36,878 bases of DNA. Origin: Pseudobdellovibrionaceae bacterium (GTDB taxonomy: Bacteria; Bdellovibrionota; FAC87; UBA2466). Below the pieces are notes generated by a model that did no database searches, was not told the DNA's origin, and saw only the letters and a program-made list of their open reading frames with translations. This document shows positions 7,737-17,997 of the stretch, in pieces. Each line of letters begins with the position of its first letter. The first letter of the stretch is position 1. The stretch spans positions 1 through 36,878 of the forward strand of contig JAHFAF010000015.1 in NCBI GenBank assembly GCA_023250715.1. The letters run 5' to 3'. Position numbers and translations under genes: made by a program.

Positions 7737-8789
7737 CTACGATTTCAACTCTGTCCACATTCGATTCATGTCATTTAACGTATCCCCGATATCCTCAAGG
7801 AAATGGAGCTTTTTTAGTGTCTCTCCTGTCGGGTAGGTGTTGATGTCGTTTTGTTCTTCTGGGGTCAGCAGTAGCCTTGCCGTTTTATTAGGCGTCGCAA
7901 GCGTGTTTTCGCGGATTAAGCGCAGGGCATTTTCCGGCTCGAGCCAGAAATCGATAAAGGCGTGAGCCTCTACTTTTCTCTTCCCGGTGATAGGAATCGA
8001 AAAATTATCCGTCCAAATCGTTCCGCCCTCTTTAGGAATGAAATATTGGATAGAGGCGTTTTCCTTATGCGCTTGGTTTGCATCCACGCTGAAGACATGG
8101 GCGATATTGACCTCGCCCTTCAATAGAAGGGGTCTCGGCTCGGAGGAAAAGGTAAGAATTCGGTTCCGGGCCTTTGAAATTTCCTGACGAGCCATTCCTA
8201 AATCGTCGGTCTTGGTACTGTTCAAGGAAAGGCCCTTCCAGGAAAGTACGGCCCCGAACACTTCTCGCATATCATCCAGGAGGGAGGTGTGCTGCCCGTC
8301 TGGCGATTCAAAGAGCATTTTCCAACTTACTCCCTCAGCCGGAATCTTCACCTTATCCACGTTCAACGCGATTCCGGTTGTTCCCCAGGTAAAGGGCACC
8401 GAATACTTCAACCCCGGGTCATAAGGCAGATTGCGGTAGAAATCATCCAAGTCCTTGAGATGTGGTAACGCGGCAGGATCAACGGGCGAAAGCATTTTGA
8501 GCATCGAAAGGCGGCGGACCATGTAATCGGAAGGCTGAATGAGATCGTAGCCCGTGGCCCCTGCCCGCAGTTTTGCAAAAAGCTCCTCATTGCTGGACAT
8601 GTAGCTGAGCTCCACATGCACGCCCGTTTTTGAAGTGAACTCCTTCAGAAGGCTATCGGGATAATAATTGCTCCAGGTCAGGACTCGAAGCGGCTGAGTC
8701 TCTCCACTTCCGCGCTGTCGAAGGTAAAACATCCCTCCAACGACTAGTGCCAACGCCAAGGTAAGAGTTAGGATCCTTTTAATACCCAT
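7737..8789 (-). CDS. potD: Spermidine/putrescine ABC transporter, substrate-binding protein
   Basis: LRVLTWSNYYPDSLLKEFTSKTGVHVELSYMSSNEELFAKLRAGATGYDLIQPSDYMV...VPFTWGTTGIALNVDKV; adjacent to potA/B/C. Confidence 0.9.
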   Translation of the reverse strand: MGIKRILTLTLALALVVGGMFYLRQRGSGETQPLRVLTWSNYYPDSLLKEFTSKTGVHVELSYMSSNEELFAKLRAGATGYDLIQPSDYMVRRLSMLKMLSPVDPAALPHLKDLDDFYRNLPYDPGLKYSVPFTWGTTGIALNVDKVKIPAEGVSWKMLFESPDGQHTSLLDDMREVFGAVLSWKGLSLNSTKTDDLGMARQEISKARNRILTFSSEPRPLLLKGEVNIAHVFSVDANQAHKENASIQYFIPKEGGTIWTDNFSIPITGKRKVEAHAFIDFWLEPENALRLIRENTLATPNKTARLLLTPEEQNDINTYPTGETLKKLHFLEDIGDTLNDMNRMWTELKS

Positions 8790-9586
8790 TTTCTACTTTG
8801 CTCCTTCGACAAAAGAATAAGGACTAACGCCGTACTTAAGAAAATCATGAGAAAAGAAAGGCCGTTCAGTTCCGGTGACAAGCCAATGCGCATCAGGGAA
8901 TAGATCTTGAGCGGCAAGGTTGTAAGGCCGGCACCGCTTGTGAAAAACGAAATCAAAAAATCGTCGAATGAAAGGGTAAAGGCGAGAAGCCACCCACCCA
9001 TGACTCCAGGAAGAATATTCGGAAGGGTAACCTTCAAGAACGTCTCGGACGGTTTTGCGCCGAGATCTTGTGCTGCTTCGGAAAGATGCGGGTCTAACTT
9101 TCTCAGCTGCTCCACCATGATGAAGTAAACAAAACTCGCGCTAAAACTCGCATGCGCCAACACCACGGTCGGCATCCCCAAAGGAATTTTCCAGATCAAG
9201 AAGAAGAGAAGAAGGGACAATCCAGTAATTACTTCTGGGAGAAGGATGGGCAACATAATCAGCGTTTGAATTGAAATGGGAAGAAGCGATGCGATGGGCG
9301 TCAGGCCCACGGCCCCCGCGGTTCCGATAGCTACCGCAAGCGTCGCCGAACAAACGCCGATGAGAATGCTATTGGTAAGGGGCTCCCAAAGACTTCCGCT
9401 CTCCCAGAGTTTCCACATCCATTTCAGAGTGAATCCGCTACTGAGGCTATTCGGGTTTTCCAAAAACGCCTGCAAGATGAGATAGAGCAGAGGCAAATAG
9501 AGGAAGGTGATCGTGAGAAAGAACATTCCTGTCACGAACTGATTAGGCTTTACCGCATTCCTCATGCGGTTTTCTCCGCCTGCCAT
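8768..9586 (-). CDS. potC: Spermidine/putrescine ABC transporter permease
   Basis: Polytopic permease with EAA loop EAAQDLGAKPSETFLKVTLPNILPGVMGGWLLAFTLSFDDFLISFF; overlaps potB and potD. Confidence 0.9.
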   Translation of the reverse strand: MAGGENRMRNAVKPNQFVTGMFFLTITFLYLPLLYLILQAFLENPNSLSSGFTLKWMWKLWESGSLWEPLTNSILIGVCSATLAVAIGTAGAVGLTPIASLLPISIQTLIMLPILLPEVITGLSLLLFFLIWKIPLGMPTVVLAHASFSASFVYFIMVEQLRKLDPHLSEAAQDLGAKPSETFLKVTLPNILPGVMGGWLLAFTLSFDDFLISFFTSGAGLTTLPLKIYSLMRIGLSPELNGLSFLMIFLSTALVLILLSKEQSRKWVLKGS

Positions 9587-10398
9587 CGAGTTTGCAGATA
9601 AAGAGCCAAGAATAAGAAAACCGAAAGCAGCCCCGCGATCGAAGAGCCGAAAGGCCAGTCTTGCATTACGAAGAATTGGCTTACCATAATATTGCCGAGA
9701 AACATTTCCTTAGCGCCGCCTAATAAGTCAGGAATGACGTACTCGCCCATCATCGGAACAAAGACGAAGAGGCTTCCCACCAGGACACCTTCCTTGATGT
9801 TGGGTACGACCACCCGCCAAAAGGTATTTACGCGGTTCGCGCCTAAGTCTTGTGCAGCTTCTCTAAAGGAGGGATCCAGCTTCTCCAGTGCCGAGTAAAT
9901 GGGGACCACCAGAAAAGGGAGGTAGTTATAGACCAAGCCGAGATAAACCCCCGTACGGGTGTAAAGGATTTCAAGTGGGGTATGGATCAAACCGAATCCT
10001 AGTAGAATTTGATTTAGAAGTCCGTGGTTTCCCGCGAGGGAAATAATTCCGTAAATGCGCAAAATAAAATTCGTCCAAAAGGGAATGAAAAGAAGCACGA
10101 GACCCAGCTGCTTCATCGGCCCTTGGGCGCGCGCCAGGTAGTAAGCGACGGGAAACCCCACCATCAGGCAGGTCGAAGTGGCGATGAACGCAAGCCAAAG
10201 CGTTTTCAATAACACGCGTGCGTAAATCCAATCGAAACAGCGCAAATAGTTTTCGAAAGTAACGATGAATTGATACCCGCCGTATTCTCCCTTTTGCAAA
10301 AAACTCATGCCGAGAATGAGAAGGAAGGGAAGAAGAGTGAAGAAGCTCAACCAACCGATGAAGGAAAGGGCACTCGACGGGAGCTTATTCAGCTTCAC
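9562..10398 (-). CDS. potB: Spermidine/putrescine ABC transporter permease
   Basis: EAA loop EAAQDLGANRVNTFWRVVVPNIKEGVLVGSLFVFVPMMGEYVIPDLLGG; multiple TM segments. Confidence 0.9.
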   Translation of the reverse strand: MKLNKLPSSALSFIGWLSFFTLLPFLLILGMSFLQKGEYGGYQFIVTFENYLRCFDWIYARVLLKTLWLAFIATSTCLMVGFPVAYYLARAQGPMKQLGLVLLFIPFWTNFILRIYGIISLAGNHGLLNQILLGFGLIHTPLEILYTRTGVYLGLVYNYLPFLVVPIYSALEKLDPSFREAAQDLGANRVNTFWRVVVPNIKEGVLVGSLFVFVPMMGEYVIPDLLGGAKEMFLGNIMVSQFFVMQDWPFGSSIAGLLSVFLFLALYLQTRWQAEKTA

Positions 10399-11513
10399 GA
10401 CTTAGCACTCTCCCCGGCGGGAAGAATGATGGCGTCCTCGCTTCGCCAGGAGAGGTAAATCTTATCGCCGGGATTGAGGCTTCGTTTTTTCAGGCGCTCA
10501 AGCTCCGGCTCGAACACTTTGAAGCTATGGCAGACAGTTTTCACCAAATATTCCGTTCTCGAGCCCAGATAACTGAGTTCCTGCACTTCACCCTCAACGA
10601 TATTTTCTTGGGTGGACGAGCGTTGTCTGAGTAAGCGCATTTTCTCCGGCCGCAAGAGCAGCGAGACTTGGCGTGGGTAGACCACACCGTTTCTTTTAAT
10701 CTTAAAATTCCCCATCTGAGATTGGACCGACCAAACGCTCGCATCCGGCCCTTCATGAATCTCTCCCGGAATTTCATTCACGGGGCCGATGAAGCGCGCC
10801 ACGAAATTATCCGTCGGGTCTTCATAGATCGATTTCGGCGTACCGACTTGAAGGCACTTGCCATCGCGCATGACGGCCAAGCGATCGGAGAGCTGCAGGG
10901 CCTCTTCCTGGTCGTGTGTCACCATGATGAACGTCGAACCTACTCTCCGGCAGAGCGCGCGCAGCTCTTCGCGCATCTTCAATCGAAGTGCTGGATCGAG
11001 CGCCGAGAGGGGTTCATCCAAAAGCAACACAGAAGGCTTTCCCACAAGCGCTCGAGCGAGAGCCACGCGCTGGGATTGGCCGCCGCTAATTTGGTGAATT
11101 CGGCGGTCTTTTAGATCCTCGATCTCTACCAGCCGAAGGGCGTCGAGCACTCGGCTTTCAATTTCAAGCTTTCCCACTTTTTTTAGGCGAAGGCTGAAGG
11201 CGATGTTGTCGAAAACATTCAGATGGGGAAAGAGAGCATATCGTTGGAACACGGTGTGAATATTGCGCTGGTGCGGGGGAAGGGTGGTGATGTCTTGGGT
11301 CCCTAGTAGGATATTGCCAGTGGTGACCTGCTCGAATCCGCCGATGAGTCTTAAGACAGTTGTCTTTCCGCAACCGCTCGGGCCAAGGAGGCAGAAGAAC
11401 TCTCCCGGATTTACAGTAAGGTTTAAGGGGTCTAAACGAAATCCCCCAAACTCCTTACTCACGGCGTTAAGCTGTAGGAGCATGCCGAATTTAATAAAGG
11501 AATTGCGCATCAT
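10395..11513 (-). CDS. potA: Spermidine/putrescine ABC transporter ATP-binding protein
   Basis: Walker A GPSGCGKTTVLRLIGG, signature SGGQSQRVALARAL, Walker B VLLLDEPLSALD, TOBE-like C-terminus. Likely start is the internal Met MLLQLNAVSKEF (about 11483). Confidence 0.92.
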   Translation of the reverse strand: MMRNSFIKFGMLLQLNAVSKEFGGFRLDPLNLTVNPGEFFCLLGPSGCGKTTVLRLIGGFEQVTTGNILLGTQDITTLPPHQRNIHTVFQRYALFPHLNVFDNIAFSLRLKKVGKLEIESRVLDALRLVEIEDLKDRRIHQISGGQSQRVALARALVGKPSVLLLDEPLSALDPALRLKMREELRALCRRVGSTFIMVTHDQEEALQLSDRLAVMRDGKCLQVGTPKSIYEDPTDNFVARFIGPVNEIPGEIHEGPDASVWSVQSQMGNFKIKRNGVVYPRQVSLLLRPEKMRLLRQRSSTQENIVEGEVQELSYLGSRTEYLVKTVCHSFKVFEPELERLKKRSLNPGDKIYLSWRSEDAIILPAGESAKS

Positions 11514-11529: not shown

Positions 11530-12603
11530 ATGAATTTACCGGCCTTAGAGCGTCTCCGTCTTTTCCTCCGGCCTCCCGGGCGGGGAATTTTCACCTTCTC
11601 CACTGGAGGAGGCTATGCGACTCCTCTCTTACGCGGAATTTATGGGTCGAGTGAGTCCGCGCAAGTGCAAAATGCCTGGGAAGATTCCCTGCAACGCATC
11701 CGGCGGGTCTCCACTCTTATTTTGGGAATTCCTTCGGACACCGGAGCCGGAATTTTAAGAGGGGCAAACTTTGGTCCGCTTGGGGTGCGGCTCGCTTATT
11801 TGAAACGCTTTGGAGCCTTGCCCAAGAATGTGGTGGATGTGGGGGACGTGATCGTGGTGCCGCAACTTCTGCACGATGAGATGCTGAGCGAGGGACAGAA
11901 GGCCGCGACTCGTGCCGAGCTCTATCCGGGAATAGAAGAAAAGCTCCCGGTGTCCCCTCTTTCCATCGCCGAGGAAGTTTTGAACGCGCTTTATGAACTG
12001 AATCCTCAAGCTCAAGTGCTCATCATTGGTGGGGACCACAGCGTCAGCTGGCCTGCGATGCTCTATTGTCGCAAGCGGTGTGGGGATAATTTTGGGGTGC
12101 TTCATTTTGATGCCCATACGGATCTTTTAGAAAATCGAGTAGGCGTGAAGTACTGCTTTGCGACCTGGGCCCGACACGCCTTGCAGCTAATGAAGCCGCA
12201 TCATCTAGTTCAAGTGGGTTTAAGAACCTCGAGCCACACGAAGGAATATTGGGAGCAGATGCTCCCGGTCACTCAGTTCTGGGCACATGAGATTCGGGGG
12301 AGGGAAACGGAAATGCTGGAAAAGATTCTGGCGCACTTTCATCAGTTGAAAATTAAGCAGCTCTATCTCTCCAACGACATCGACGGCACCGACATGGCGG
12401 AAGCTCCAGCAACAGGTACGCCTGAGAAAGAGGGCCTTACGGCACAGTTCGTCTTGGCGCTTAGCGAAAGAGCGAAAAAGGAATTCGATCTTATTGGCGG
12501 CGATGTGGTGGAGGTGGCCCCTCCTCTTTCCGGTGAGTGGGATTTCGCCCAAGAAAAAACTAGCTTACTCGGCGCTCAATACTTGAACTCTCTTATAAAG
12601 TAA
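11530..12603 (+). CDS. Ureohydrolase (arginase/agmatinase family)
   Basis: GGDHSVSWPAM, FGVLHFDAHTDLL, LSNDIDGTDMAEAPATGTPEKEGL metal-binding motifs. Start set at MNLPALERL (11530) because the listed ORF upstream of this is antisense to potA. Confidence 0.88.
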   Translation: MNLPALERLRLFLRPPGRGIFTFSTGGGYATPLLRGIYGSSESAQVQNAWEDSLQRIRRVSTLILGIPSDTGAGILRGANFGPLGVRLAYLKRFGALPKNVVDVGDVIVVPQLLHDEMLSEGQKAATRAELYPGIEEKLPVSPLSIAEEVLNALYELNPQAQVLIIGGDHSVSWPAMLYCRKRCGDNFGVLHFDAHTDLLENRVGVKYCFATWARHALQLMKPHHLVQVGLRTSSHTKEYWEQMLPVTQFWAHEIRGRETEMLEKILAHFHQLKIKQLYLSNDIDGTDMAEAPATGTPEKEGLTAQFVLALSERAKKEFDLIGGDVVEVAPPLSGEWDFAQEKTSLLGAQYLNSLIK

Positions 12604-12620: not shown

Positions 12621-13907
12621 GTGCTCCGAAAATTGGAAAGCCCGTACTTTATAGCGTCGCTATTTTCCGTTCTACTCGGACTCCATCTCTTCCATCTTTT
12701 GCACTTTAGTTTAAATCTTCCGCTTGGGGATGAGTGGGTCATGCTCAAGTCGAACGGGTTGCCCCGGGGATTGACTTGGGGGTGGCTCCTGGAACGACAT
12801 AATGAGCATAAAATTGTCCTGACCAAACTCCAAATACTTCTCTCTGTCGCGGTGGATGGGTGGAATGTCGTACACATTCAGGTCTTCAATCTCTTTTTTT
12901 ACTTTGCGTGGATTCTTTGGCTTGGGTTTTTCCTTCACGAGCAAGCAACCGACCTTCCGAAAGGAGTAATCGCAGCCCTTCTGCTTTTTTTGGGGTCTTT
13001 AATCAATTGTGAGAACCACAGTTGGGCCTTTCAGTCGCAGTTTCATTTTGGTGTCGCTTTTCTCTCTGTTGGGGCCTTCTTTCTTTTTCGCCCCGGACTA
13101 TCGAATACCTTTCTCGGGAGTGCATTTTGCGTACTTTCCATGTTTAGCGTGGGCTTCGGAGTTCCCGGAGCGCTTACGGTTTTTTCCCTATTCGGGGTTT
13201 TCATTTTGTTGGGGCGACGCGAGCAATGGCGGGAACTTGTCTTAGCATGCTCCATGGGAACGGCGGCGTTGTGGCTTTGGCTTTTTTACGATGCAGCCAT
13301 CGATAATGGGACTCTCATTCTGCCTCATCGTTTGAAGTTTTGGAGATTTCTGGCAGGGCTTGTCTCCTTGGGTTTTGGTTTTGAGGGAGAAGGTAGGGAG
13401 TGGTGGGACTTTCTGATCCTCTTTGGAGTATTGGGCTCTCTTCTGCTTCTCCTCGTGCGCCGGCGTTTTCGATTAAATTCCAAGGAGTCGGCAACCGTCG
13501 CGTTAACAGCCGCTTACCTCTCCTCGGCGGGCCTCATGGCTGCCGGCCGGGCGGCCCGTTTCGGTGTCGAATATGCGAAGAGATCGCGGTATTCCGAAGT
13601 GACGATGGCGCTTGTTCCCTTGACTGGTCTTCTCCTCTTTCAGGCGATCCCTAGGGGGAAGTGGCGGGGCTGGGCTTTGGGTGTGGTATGGGCGGTTGCC
13701 TTTCTGGGGTATTCGAACAATTGGAACTTTCGCGTCTATAACGCAACTCTGAGAGGCAAACAAATAGGACTGGAATGCATCCAAAATTTCTACACAAATT
13801 TGGGGACGGACCACTGCGCTACTGTGCATGAAGAGGCTTTGGCGGATTATTTGGCCGAAGCCAAGCGAATGCGACTCTCTTTCTTTAGAGATCTTCAAAA
13901 TCCCTAG
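12621..13907 (+). CDS. Polytopic membrane protein, possibly GT-C-like glycosyltransferase
   Basis: GTG start. About ten hydrophobic segments; early LPLGDEWVMLK and LLERHNEHKIVL motif as in some uncharacterised membrane glycosyltransferase-like proteins. Confidence 0.6.
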   Translation: MLRKLESPYFIASLFSVLLGLHLFHLLHFSLNLPLGDEWVMLKSNGLPRGLTWGWLLERHNEHKIVLTKLQILLSVAVDGWNVVHIQVFNLFFYFAWILWLGFFLHEQATDLPKGVIAALLLFLGSLINCENHSWAFQSQFHFGVAFLSVGAFFLFRPGLSNTFLGSAFCVLSMFSVGFGVPGALTVFSLFGVFILLGRREQWRELVLACSMGTAALWLWLFYDAAIDNGTLILPHRLKFWRFLAGLVSLGFGFEGEGREWWDFLILFGVLGSLLLLLVRRRFRLNSKESATVALTAAYLSSAGLMAAGRAARFGVEYAKRSRYSEVTMALVPLTGLLLFQAIPRGKWRGWALGVVWAVAFLGYSNNWNFRVYNATLRGKQIGLECIQNFYTNLGTDHCATVHEEALADYLAEAKRMRLSFFRDLQNP

Positions 13908-13928: not shown

Positions 13929-15956
13929 GTGAAGATAGCGTTTGTTTTCAACCGAAAAACCAATGACTCTCTAGAACAGGCCGAGTTTGATACGCCGGAT
14001 ACCATTGCGGCGATTCACAACGCCCTCGCGAGTGGCGGCCACGAGGTTCTGGACGTGGAAATGGCGTTGGAAGACTCCGTTTCAAGCTGGCTTCGGCGGC
14101 TCTCCGAGGTAAAACCCGACATTATTTTTAATACGGCTGAGGGCTATTATGGCATCGGGCGGGAGAGTCTCGGGCCGACTTTGTTCGAACAGCTGAAGAT
14201 CCCTTATGTGGGATCGGGCCCTTATGGGTGTTTTCTCACCCTCGATAAATTCTTGACGAAGCAGATGGTGGCCAGTCGCAAAGTACCGGTGGTGGAAGGG
14301 TATTTCGTCAACTCTCAGGAAGAGCTGCAGAGCATTGCAAAAGAGGTGTATTACCCCGCCTTCGTGAAGCCCAATTATGAAGGATCGAGTAAGGGAATCA
14401 CAGAGCGATCCGTGTGCAAGGATGCGTCCGAGCTTTTAAGTTACGGCTCGGAATCCTTGAAACTATTTCCGAACGGGATTTTGGTCGAACGCTATATTCC
14501 GGGAAGAGACGTCTCGGTTCCCTACATTGCGGGCCTGGGAGATAGCGGGGTGCTGGAGCCGCTAGAGTATGTCTTCCAAGGGCGCACCGAGAGCCAGATT
14601 TACGACTACGACTTAAAGAACAAGTACGACGACGCTGTGTCAGTGCGTTGTCCGGCTCAGCTCGAACCCGGGATTCGCGCACAGATTTTCGAATTGATGA
14701 AGCGGGTGATCCCTGCGGTCGGTGTGGTCGATTTCGCGCGCGCGGATTTTAGAATCAGCCCGGAAGGTGAAGTCTATTTTCTGGAGCTCAATGCCTTGCC
14801 GAGCTTGCAGCCAGGGGCTGGAATATTCGAAGCGACCCATTGTCTTGGGCTCGATTACAATCAAACGATCTTAAAGATGTTGGATGCCGCGGTTGCTCGG
14901 CTGAAACTAAAGCAAACAAAAGCTCCCGGCCGCTTGCGAACGACTACGCCTCGGGTGGGGCTCGTCTATAATTTAAAAAGGAAAGATCCGGGCGATCCCG
15001 ATTACGAACGGGAGGCTGAGTTTGATTCGCAGAAAACGGTCGATGTTCTGCGTTCGACGATTGAAAGGTTTGGCTGTCCGGTCATTCCCATCGAAGCGAC
15101 GAAAACCCTCTCGGAAAATCTCCTCGAGCTCCGGGTGGATGTCGTTTTCAATATTGCCGAAGGTTCGAATAAACGGGCGCGAGAAGCTCAAGTTCCAGCC
15201 GTATGTGATTTGCTTGGAATTGAGCATACAGGGAGTGACGCCACTTGTTTGGCCATTACTTTGGATAAGGCCATCACGAAGAAACTCTTAAGTCAGGACG
15301 GCATTCTCACTCCGAACTATCGTCTTTATCAGGGCGGCCGCCAAATCGAGGCGGGCTTAAGATTTCCGGTCATTGTAAAACCCAATCACGAGGGCACCTC
15401 CAAGGGTATCGGCGGTAAATCGGTCGTGATGAGCCAGGAAGAGATGCTGGAAGAGGCTCAATCGCAATGGCGAAGATTTCAAGAGCCCATTCTTTGCGAA
15501 GAATATATCGAGGGGCGTGAGTACACAATTGGAGTCTTGGGCAGCAGTACTTTGAAAATCTTGGGGCCGATGGAGATTAAGTTCGGCGCCGGTGCCGGCC
15601 AATACCCGGTCTATTCCTTCGAGGCGAAGCACGCACCGATGGAAAATGATATTTTTTCCGTGGTCTGCCCGGTTTCCTTGGGGAAGGAACAAGATCGAAA
15701 AATCCTCCAATTCGCGAAAAAAGTATTTCGTTCCTTGGGTTGTCGCGATGTCGGCCGGATCGATTTTCGTATCGATAATCGGGGGAATATTTTCTTCCTC
15801 GAGATCAATCCTTTGCCAGGGCTTGCTCCGGCCTTTAGCGATCTCGTCGTTATGGCCGAAAAATGTGGCATGACCTATGAAAGTCTCATTAAACGGATTT
15901 TAGCTCCGGCCATCCAACGCTGGAGAAACGTTGGCCGCATGCGCGTAGTTACCTAA
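13929..15956 (+). CDS. Tandem D-Ala-D-Ala-ligase-like double ATP-grasp enzyme
   Basis: GTG start. Two full ligase-like modules: FVKPNYEGSSKGI...YDYDLKNKYDD...ADFRISPEGEVYFLELNALPSL and IVKPNHEGTSKGIGG...YSFEAKHAPME...IDFRIDNRGNIFFLEINPLPGL. Confidence 0.85.
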   Translation: MKIAFVFNRKTNDSLEQAEFDTPDTIAAIHNALASGGHEVLDVEMALEDSVSSWLRRLSEVKPDIIFNTAEGYYGIGRESLGPTLFEQLKIPYVGSGPYGCFLTLDKFLTKQMVASRKVPVVEGYFVNSQEELQSIAKEVYYPAFVKPNYEGSSKGITERSVCKDASELLSYGSESLKLFPNGILVERYIPGRDVSVPYIAGLGDSGVLEPLEYVFQGRTESQIYDYDLKNKYDDAVSVRCPAQLEPGIRAQIFELMKRVIPAVGVVDFARADFRISPEGEVYFLELNALPSLQPGAGIFEATHCLGLDYNQTILKMLDAAVARLKLKQTKAPGRLRTTTPRVGLVYNLKRKDPGDPDYEREAEFDSQKTVDVLRSTIERFGCPVIPIEATKTLSENLLELRVDVVFNIAEGSNKRAREAQVPAVCDLLGIEHTGSDATCLAITLDKAITKKLLSQDGILTPNYRLYQGGRQIEAGLRFPVIVKPNHEGTSKGIGGKSVVMSQEEMLEEAQSQWRRFQEPILCEEYIEGREYTIGVLGSSTLKILGPMEIKFGAGAGQYPVYSFEAKHAPMENDIFSVVCPVSLGKEQDRKILQFAKKVFRSLGCRDVGRIDFRIDNRGNIFFLEINPLPGLAPAFSDLVVMAEKCGMTYESLIKRILAPAIQRWRNVGRMRVVT

Positions 15957-15964
15957 AGTTAACC

Positions 15965-17122
15965 ATGAGCAACCTGTACGAGCGCTATAGAGAAGATGGG
16001 AAGAAGCGGACACGATTGCGCACTCTTGGGTTGAATATCGGCGAGTACAGGACCGGTGAGTTGAACGCCATCACGGATGTACCCGGCGTTAGGGTTGGGC
16101 ACTCTACCCTGATTGAAGGTTCGGGCCGGCGAAAACCGGGGAACGGCCCCGTGAGAACGGGCGTCACGGTCATTTCTCCTAACGACGACATTTATAATCA
16201 AAAACTTATCAGCGGGGGCTTTATCTTAAGTGGCGCCGGCGAGGTGGCGGGCCTGACACAGGTGACGGAGTGGGGTCTCATCGAGACGCCCATTGCACTG
16301 ACCAATACCCTATCCGTTGGGCGAGTGAGCGATAGCGTCGTGAAATGGATGACGCAAAAGTATTCCCATATTCGAGAGCTTCAAGAGGTCGTGATTCCGG
16401 TCGTTGGTGAGTGCGACGATAGTTTCTTGAACGATGCGGTGGGGCTCCATGTAAAACCCCAACATGTTTTTGCGGCCCTGGATTCCGCGACGGGCGGGCC
16501 GGTGGAAGAGGGGGCTGTCGGTGCGGGCACAGGAATGATCTGCTGCGACTTTAAGGGGGGGATAGGCACGTCCAGTCGCATGGTTCCTATCGGCAAGCAA
16601 GATTATGTGATGGGAGTCTTGGTCTGCAGCAACTTCGGGATCATGGAGCACCTGCGAATGGATGGGTATCCTATTGGCCGCGTGCTTTATGGAAGACAGG
16701 GTGTCTATAACCGAAGGACCACGAGCTATGGCTCTATCATCGTAGTGATTGCGACGAATATGCCCCTGACTGCCATGCAGATGAACCGCCTTTGTCGTCG
16801 GGCGGCGTTAGGAATTGGGAGGGTGGGAAGCTACGGGGCCCATTCGAGCGGAGAGATTATCATCGGTTTTTCGACGGCAAACGTCATTCCGAGAAATCCT
16901 CCCGAGCCCGCCGTCCATTTCCAAATGATTCACGACACCTTCCTGGACCCGGCCTATCGCGCGGTGATTGAGGCAACAGAGGAATCGATCCTAAATAGCC
17001 TAACCATGGCGGTCGACATGGAGGGAGCCGCTGGAAATCGCGTGCCTGCGATCAACCTTCAGCTTTTGAAAGGGCTCTTTGAGCATTATAATTCAGTGAA
17101 CGCGCTCATGCGCGCCAAATAG
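15965..17122 (+). CDS. P1 family (DmpA-type) L-aminopeptidase/D-esterase
   Basis: GELNAITDVPGVRVGHSTL...GNGPVRTGVTVI...GTGMICCDFKGGIGTSSR; autoproteolysis/nucleophile site YG|SIIVVIATNMPL (Gly codon 16730-16732, Ser codon 16733-16735). Confidence 0.9.
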   Translation: MSNLYERYREDGKKRTRLRTLGLNIGEYRTGELNAITDVPGVRVGHSTLIEGSGRRKPGNGPVRTGVTVISPNDDIYNQKLISGGFILSGAGEVAGLTQVTEWGLIETPIALTNTLSVGRVSDSVVKWMTQKYSHIRELQEVVIPVVGECDDSFLNDAVGLHVKPQHVFAALDSATGGPVEEGAVGAGTGMICCDFKGGIGTSSRMVPIGKQDYVMGVLVCSNFGIMEHLRMDGYPIGRVLYGRQGVYNRRTTSYGSIIVVIATNMPLTAMQMNRLCRRAALGIGRVGSYGAHSSGEIIIGFSTANVIPRNPPEPAVHFQMIHDTFLDPAYRAVIEATEESILNSLTMAVDMEGAAGNRVPAINLQLLKGLFEHYNSVNALMRAK

Positions 17123-17181: not shown

Positions 17182-17997
17182 ATGACGGTACTCCAGGCGT
17201 TCATCCTCGGCATGGTCCAAGGACTCACTGAATTCTTACCGATCAGTAGCTCCGCCCACTTGGTTCTCTTCCCCTGGTTCTTAAAATGGCAGGATCCGGG
17301 ACTGGCCTTCGACGTTTTCCTCCATCTGGGAACTCTGCTCGCCGTGTTCGGCTATTTTTTTCGGGACTGGTTGCAGTTGGCGAAGGCCGGTTTCATGAGC
17401 GTCGTCGATCGAAGGATTGGCTTTGATAGGGAGCGCCTTCTCTTTTGGCTTCTTGTTCTCGGGACGATTCCGGCTGGGGTTGCCGGTCTTCTCTTTCACC
17501 ATCAGGTGGAAGAGCATTTTCGAGATCCTCTTTTAATTGCCATCCCTCTGGCGCTGGTGGGCTTTCTTATGTATTGGGTCGACGGCAATTATCCGTCCTT
17601 AAGGCATGTCGACGAGCTTTCCTTTAAAGATGCCTTTTGGATTGGCATTGCTCAGGCCTGTTCGATTGTTCCGGGCGTTTCCCGATCTGGAAGCACGATG
17701 ACGATGGGCCGATTGCGCAGCGTGAATCGAGAGTCTGCGGCAAGATTTTCTTTTCTCCTTTCTTTTCCCATTACCGCTTCTGCTTGTTTATTCGAGGGGA
17801 AAAAACTCATGGAGCAGGCGGGACAGGGAATTTCCATGCAATGTCTGGTGGCGGGGTTTCTTGCTTCTGCCGTCTTCGGCATCTTGAGCATTCACGTGCT
17901 CTTAAGACTCTTGCGTACCGCGGACTTCAAGATATTCGCCTGGTACCGCGTATTTCTCGCGGCGGGAATTGTCTTTTGGTCCCTCATGAAGCGTTAG
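17182..17997 (+). CDS. uppP: Undecaprenyl-diphosphatase
   Basis: MTVLQAFILGMVQGLTEFLPISSSAHLVL (E/Q-rich motif) and PGVSRSGSTMTMGRLRSVNRESAARFSFLLSFPI. Confidence 0.95.
   Translation: MTVLQAFILGMVQGLTEFLPISSSAHLVLFPWFLKWQDPGLAFDVFLHLGTLLAVFGYFFRDWLQLAKAGFMSVVDRRIGFDRERLLFWLLVLGTIPAGVAGLLFHHQVEEHFRDPLLIAIPLALVGFLMYWVDGNYPSLRHVDELSFKDAFWIGIAQACSIVPGVSRSGSTMTMGRLRSVNRESAARFSFLLSFPITASACLFEGKKLMEQAGQGISMQCLVAGFLASAVFGILSIHVLLRLLRTADFKIFAWYRVFLAAGIVFWSLMKR

Follow-up and report, generated by a model that had tools for sequence, protein, structure and literature searches.

A 36,878-nucleotide stretch of DNA from a Pseudobdellovibrionaceae bacterium (contig JAHFAF010000015.1 of assembly GCA_023250715.1; hereafter, the window) contains a gene for a protein with two ATP-grasp modules of the D-Ala-D-Ala ligase (Ddl) type in one chain, followed by a gene for a P1/S58 peptidase of the DmpA type (Table 1). 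The two genes form a real and ancient cassette that has been kept as a unit; the catalytic residues are present in both ligase modules, and ligase and peptidase are tightly co-inherited. We give a probability of about 0.5 to the reading that the cassette encodes a cytoplasmic two-site amide or peptide ligase and a peptidase that acts on the same compound, releasing or recycling its N-terminal residue. The wider proposal of an undescribed pathway in part of one phylum, in which the two-site ligase builds a tripeptide-like or doubly conjugated molecule, possibly from beta-, D- or guanidino/polyamine blocks, for processing by a dedicated S58 peptidase, is put forward tentatively, as somewhat short of an even chance.

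Comparison with Pfam rendered two PF07478 stretches in the ligase (227 bits in total), and both modules were above the 24-bit gathering score of that family (99.4 and 133.5 bits). Each module could be aligned with solved Ddl and VanA structures, the nearest being DdlB (8evy) for module A and VanA (1e4e) for module B. These results bear out an earlier note on this DNA, made from the sequence alone, which had described two complete Ddl-like modules; the loop and metal-binding motifs that it named are present in both (EGSSKG / EGTSKG, YDYDLK / YSFEAK and FLELNALP / FLEINPLP). We aligned 31 A modules and 32 B modules with Escherichia coli DdlB, whose numbering is used below and whose reference sequence and residue roles we take to be those of general knowledge. 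Residues K97, K144, E148, G149, S151, K215, R255, D257, E270 and N272 were invariant (31/31 A and 32/32 B modules), and E180 was kept in 31/31 A modules and 31/32 B modules. With the ATP/Mg residues essentially invariant and none of the key ones lost from either module, both appear to be catalytically intact, as the earlier note had proposed. An AlphaFold run on a two-sequence alignment only gave a predicted local distance difference test (pLDDT) value of 34. In one relative (G011:C91:2647-4688, L022) a frameshift near residue 208, either genuine or an assembly error, divides the ligase into two overlapping frames.

In the reaction of Ddl-type ATP-grasp enzymes a carboxylate is first activated as an acyl phosphate and then joined to an amine. 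The window's ligase shares with Ddl (PF07478, TIGR01205) and with the VanA-type D-Ala-D-Lac ligases the fold, the ATP/Mg residues and, it is expected, this acyl-phosphate chemistry, but it consists of two fused modules and differs in the substrate pocket. The description "Ddl-like" therefore holds for the fold and fails for substrate specificity, since the Ddl-specific substrate residues are replaced. In the aligned relatives H63 is replaced by E, E68 by R and D69 by E, and the position of Y216 is occupied by N or Q in the A modules and mostly by Q, L or H in the B modules; neither module shows the E15-S150-Y216 triad of Ddl together with H63 and E68. Positions 281-282 are mainly A-G in module A and S-D in module B (S637-D638, B-specific). 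The whole ligase passes the NCBIfam Ddl cut-offs (311 versus 243; 275.6 versus 245.65) because two sub-threshold module scores are summed, the single modules reaching only 138.7 and 176.8 against 243, and 128.3 and 151.8 against 245.65. Automated pipelines could in this way label the protein "D-alanine--D-alanine ligase" and hide a different enzyme, and summed tandem-domain scores are likely to give rise to misnamed proteins in public annotation.

Four members of the window's family, and also G019, have a separate gene for a genuine Ddl, and the window's own genome has a Ddl fragment at a contig edge (C158:9-461) that is 63% identical to the Ddl of G003. D-Ala-D-Ala synthesis by the tandem ligase is unlikely because this separate Ddl exists and, judged by sequence, the 675-residue protein is not the cell-wall D-Ala-D-Ala ligase. 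A 347-residue protein of the same genome was considered as its Ddl and rejected, as the tree placed it as another Ddl-like ATP-grasp protein. It is a third, different, single-module type (G000:C48:9840-10655, L003; motif FNLLDEFDGN in a 347-residue open frame), with relatives in G035 and other genomes.

For its part, the P1-family peptidase, whose gene starts 8 nucleotides downstream as the earlier note had stated, matched PF03576 (Peptidase_S58) over its full length (370.5 bits, profile positions 1-306 of 307). DmpA/BapA-type enzymes expose a Ser nucleophile by self-cleavage and take L-, D- or beta-amino acyl groups off the N-terminus of their substrates. After alignment to BapA and PH0078, N223, G256-S257 and S295-G296-E297 were conserved in at least 95% of 28 sequences, and on this alignment the nucleophile is intact. 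The protein thus resembles the DmpA, BapA and PH0078-type S58 (P1) aminopeptidases in its full-length family match, its G-S self-processing site and its Asn and Ser-Gly-Glu catalytic positions, and differs from them in being the fixed partner of a tandem ligase. The nearest solved relatives were 2drh (named as a hypothetical D-aminopeptidase), followed by BapA and DmpA; the branch of ThnT, which serves in thienamycin biosynthesis, was a weak relative. The natural substrates of S58 peptidases are generally unclear, and the pairing supplies a testable partner, the ligase product being a candidate native substrate. The peptidase would act in the cytoplasm, because no secretion signal is evident by eye at the start of either protein.

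The distribution of both genes was surveyed in 369 genomes of the phylum, counting the ligase at E <= 1e-60 and the peptidase at E <= 1e-40. The ligase was found in 36 genomes, in 35 of them as a tandem, and the peptidase in 43; both genes occurred together in 35, the ligase only in 1, the peptidase only in 8 and neither in 325. Thus, the peptidase was present in 35/36 genomes with the ligase and in 8/333 without it (Fisher p ~4e-40, not corrected for kinship), and in 25/25 ligase-bearing genera from seven families (p ~2e-25, also uncorrected). The genes were adjacent in 32/36 genomes. Where the downstream side of a fetched region was readable (30 regions), 27 had the adjacent pair on the same strand, always ligase and then peptidase, with gaps of -56 to +75 nucleotides as measured from longest-open-reading-frame starts, many of them of -4. 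The two-gene order is more than chance, because it is kept across seven families, and it is kept while the flanking genes differ between families; the earlier note had allowed that the adjacency might be unique to this genome, and it is not. The pairwise divergences of ligase and peptidase were correlated (r=0.92), with 0/2000 permutations as high. The window belongs to an assembly with a completeness of 97.5% and a contamination of 8.6%, but its gene order at the locus agrees with that of its relatives.

There are several irregular cases. In G128 and G110, scored as having the peptidase only, the contig ends next to the peptidase gene, at the flank where the ligase would be expected. G319 carries a lone B-like module of 336 residues (L068 7097-8107) whose gene overlaps the peptidase gene by 4 nucleotides; its module A was either lost or never present. 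In G179 and G079 the peptidase is directly followed by a different, non-canonical Ddl-like ATP-grasp gene and then by a GNAT acetyltransferase gene (L110 5702-8454; L112 5836-8568), a three-gene cluster that is an independent association of an S58 peptidase with an ATP-grasp ligase. A single-protein contig scan with the ligase rendered one further record only, and the sensitive-profile search beyond the phylum covered viral contigs only.

Our proposal for the function of the cassette is as follows. Each ligase site would activate a carboxylate as an acyl phosphate and couple it to an amine; with two such sites a single protein would make two amide bonds in sequence, yielding a tripeptide-like or twice-conjugated small molecule. 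Acting in the same compartment on this compound, the self-processing aminopeptidase would free an N-terminal amino acyl group, possibly a D- or beta-residue, either for recycling or to unmask a mature product. Activity of both sites, their consecutive use and the action of the peptidase on what the ligase makes are all inferred. Two active ATP-grasp halves in one chain have a precedent in the large chain of carbamoyl-phosphate synthetase, which is of another ATP-grasp family, catalyzes another reaction and has weak profile similarity to the tandem ligase. The chemistry suggested in the earlier note, a non-ribosomal peptide or a D/beta-amino acid conjugate, stays a conjecture. From the tight co-inheritance of the two genes, these bacteria probably synthesize some compound and also process it. 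The literature searched, which did not cover the main survey of ATP-grasp ligases (Iyer et al. 2009), yielded no description of the tandem architecture, and neither it nor Pfam, NCBIfam or PDB yielded a characterized fused ligase family that would include the protein.

A number of observations weigh against this proposal. If ligase and hydrolase shared both compound and compartment, the arrangement would be wasteful in the absence of regulation. The equivalents of Ser281/Leu282, which bind the second substrate in Ddl, are missing from module A, so that one site could have a different role. No peptidase was found in G178, a genome that is 85% complete, and adjacency is missing in G019, G079, G178 and G179. 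The co-occurrence and mirror-tree figures partly reflect shared ancestry. Finally, the genes around the pair change from family to family and therefore do not reveal a pathway.

Four other explanations were considered. The ligase could be a duplicated cell-wall D-Ala-D-Ala ligase, with the peptidase and the undecaprenyl-diphosphate phosphatase UppP serving peptidoglycan turnover, which would suit the full-length NCBIfam scores and the presence of UppP after the pair in the window's family. Each module alone, however, falls far under those cut-offs, every relative aligned has other residues in place of H63, E68 and Y216 of the pocket, separate Ddl genes (or, in the window's genome, a fragment) exist, and UppP adjoins the pair in that family only; we regard this explanation as extremely improbable, and it was discarded on the pocket residues, the per-module scores and the separate Ddl. 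It also seems improbable that the adjacency is an incidental operon hitch-hiking of two enzymes with unrelated reactions. S58 peptidases are common and can adjoin unrelated genes, and eight genomes of the phylum carry the peptidase without the ligase, but co-occurrence and order persist over 40-50% sequence divergence and changed flanks, and G019, G079 and G179 still have both genes, though apart.

The remaining two explanations accept the partnership and change its purpose. A case of an ATP-grasp ligase sharing an operon with a dedicated peptidase has been published, namely RimK, a glutamate ligase for ribosomal protein RpsF, and the peptidase RimB (PMC12239564). The pair in the window could likewise add and remove amino acids on a protein or an existing peptide, with no free metabolite. 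MATCAP-type carboxypeptidase genes (PF08014) adjoin the pair in G033 and G098, from two different families (L055 4779-6038; L058 10267-11571), which would be in line with such a role. Yet RimK is of another ATP-grasp type, RimB is an aspartic peptidase and their target is a ribosomal protein, whereas the window's ligase best matches Ddl/VanA, with only 24 bits to the RimK profile, and its peptidase is of the S58 type. Studied Ddl-type members use free amino acids, S58 enzymes work at the N-terminal acyl group and RimK at the C-terminus, which it extends, and no conserved target protein gene lies near the pair. MATCAP, for its part, is missing from many genomes with the pair; found in only 13/27 tested genomes, among them G048, which is without the pair, it was rejected as a third partner. 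We consider protein modification of this kind rather unlikely. The peptidase might instead be a synthetic acyl transferase or maturation enzyme, both genes being biosynthetic and nothing being recycled. Tight gene coupling would suit a biosynthetic operon, and the ThnT branch, although a weak solved relative, belongs to such a pathway. Synthetic activity towards L-carnosine has also been reported for aminopeptidases of this kind (PMC9235088, PMC9570944). Hydrolysis and transfer are not separable by sequence, and the closest solved relatives are named aminopeptidases; we consider a purely synthetic role unlikely.

A tree built from 54 modules resolved two clades, one holding every A module and the other every B module, which grouped together (92% support in the Shimodaira-Hasegawa-like approximate likelihood ratio test, SH-aLRT), apart from single-module relatives. 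This pattern points to one duplication and fusion, most likely before the spread of the tandem family, which comprises two subfamilies (~50% or more, and ~43-46%, identity to the window ligase). More distant are single-module Ddl-like ATP-grasp proteins encoded on rhizobial and Thioflavicoccus plasmids (~28-32% identity). Their module-like sequences mark them as related ligases, but they have one module and no adjoining P1 peptidase, and their neighbors are diamino-acid biosynthesis genes, KamA or an MFS transporter. The plasmid matches listed as covering >80% of the query were not tandems, being ~1 kb single modules matched by both query halves. The Thioflavicoccus gene lies beside genes for diaminobutyrate transaminase, SbnA, an ornithine cyclodeaminase-type protein and KamA, and that of Sinorhizobium meliloti beside ectB and an L-amino-acid-ligase-type ATP-grasp gene. 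These remote relatives thus adjoin genes for diaminopropionate/diaminobutyrate biosynthesis and lysine 2,3-aminomutase. This diamino- and beta-amino acid theme fits the known taste of some S58 enzymes and, because the identity is only ~28-32%, serves as a lead to the substrate and not as evidence for it.

Single-module Ddl-like ligases 37-39% identical to the window ligase were also seen on two IMG/VR contigs, L130 (5001-6026; 35.9 kb) and L131 (4644-5960; 31.6 kb), with no match to a PHROG family. By eye, both contigs have a large terminase-like gene downstream, and L130 also carries a phage-type DNA polymerase and a portal gene. The terminase-like protein of L131 (7079-10297) has 1072 residues and an apparent intein-like insertion relative to its 693-residue counterpart in L130. 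On a 528,957-base IMG/VR contig, either a huge phage or host DNA, a single ATP-grasp protein (L129 5001-6035; 40% identity) is closest to tandem proteins of subfamily 2 and has module-A-like motifs.

Table 1. Positions of the ligase-peptidase pair and of neighboring genes in the window
Feature	Positions	Strand	Remarks
Tandem ligase gene	13929-15956	+	GTG start; 675 residues
Ligase module A (Ddl-type N-terminal, central and C-terminal ATP-grasp domains)	13929-14942	+	Residues 1-338; PF07478 stretch; boundary with module B approximate
Ligase module B (second complete ATP-grasp module plus stop codon)	14943-15956	+	Residues 339-675; PF07478 stretch 471-658
P1/S58 (DmpA-type) peptidase	15965-17122	+	385 residues; PF03576; predicted self-cleavage Gly256-Ser257
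Arginase/agmatinase-type ureohydrolase	11530-12603	+	PF00491; start set at conserved Met90 of the longest open reading frame; neighbor kept only in the window's family
Divergent four-gene polyamine-type ABC importer (PotABCD-like)	7737-11513	-	Best NCBIfam matches PotA/B/C/D; kept only in the window's family
Undecaprenyl-diphosphate phosphatase (UppP/BacA)	17182-17997	+	PF02673, 272 bits; TIGR00753 above cut-off; kept only in the window's family
Hydrophobic multi-pass membrane protein, between arginase and ligase	12621-13907	+	Not a conserved part of the cassette

In most of the window's family the order arginase-ligase-peptidase-UppP is kept, together with the divergent importer. Outside that family, arginase, UppP and importer were not found at the locus, and they were rejected as core parts of the cassette because their conservation is confined to it. 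All metal-ligand motifs of the ureohydrolase are invariant, and its nearest solved relatives are guanidinobutyrase and agmatinase; together with the polyamine importer, it is a weak hint that the building blocks used in the window's family are guanidino compounds or polyamines. The membrane protein upstream of the ligase had no Pfam or NCBIfam match and no detectable relative at the same place in other genomes, G006 having a different membrane protein there. At the G164 locus a carbon-nitrogen hydrolase domain follows a GNAT-like N-terminal part (by eye), and G165 has a gene of similar size. The loci of G364 and G342 contain MFS- or DMT-like transporters, as judged by sequence only.

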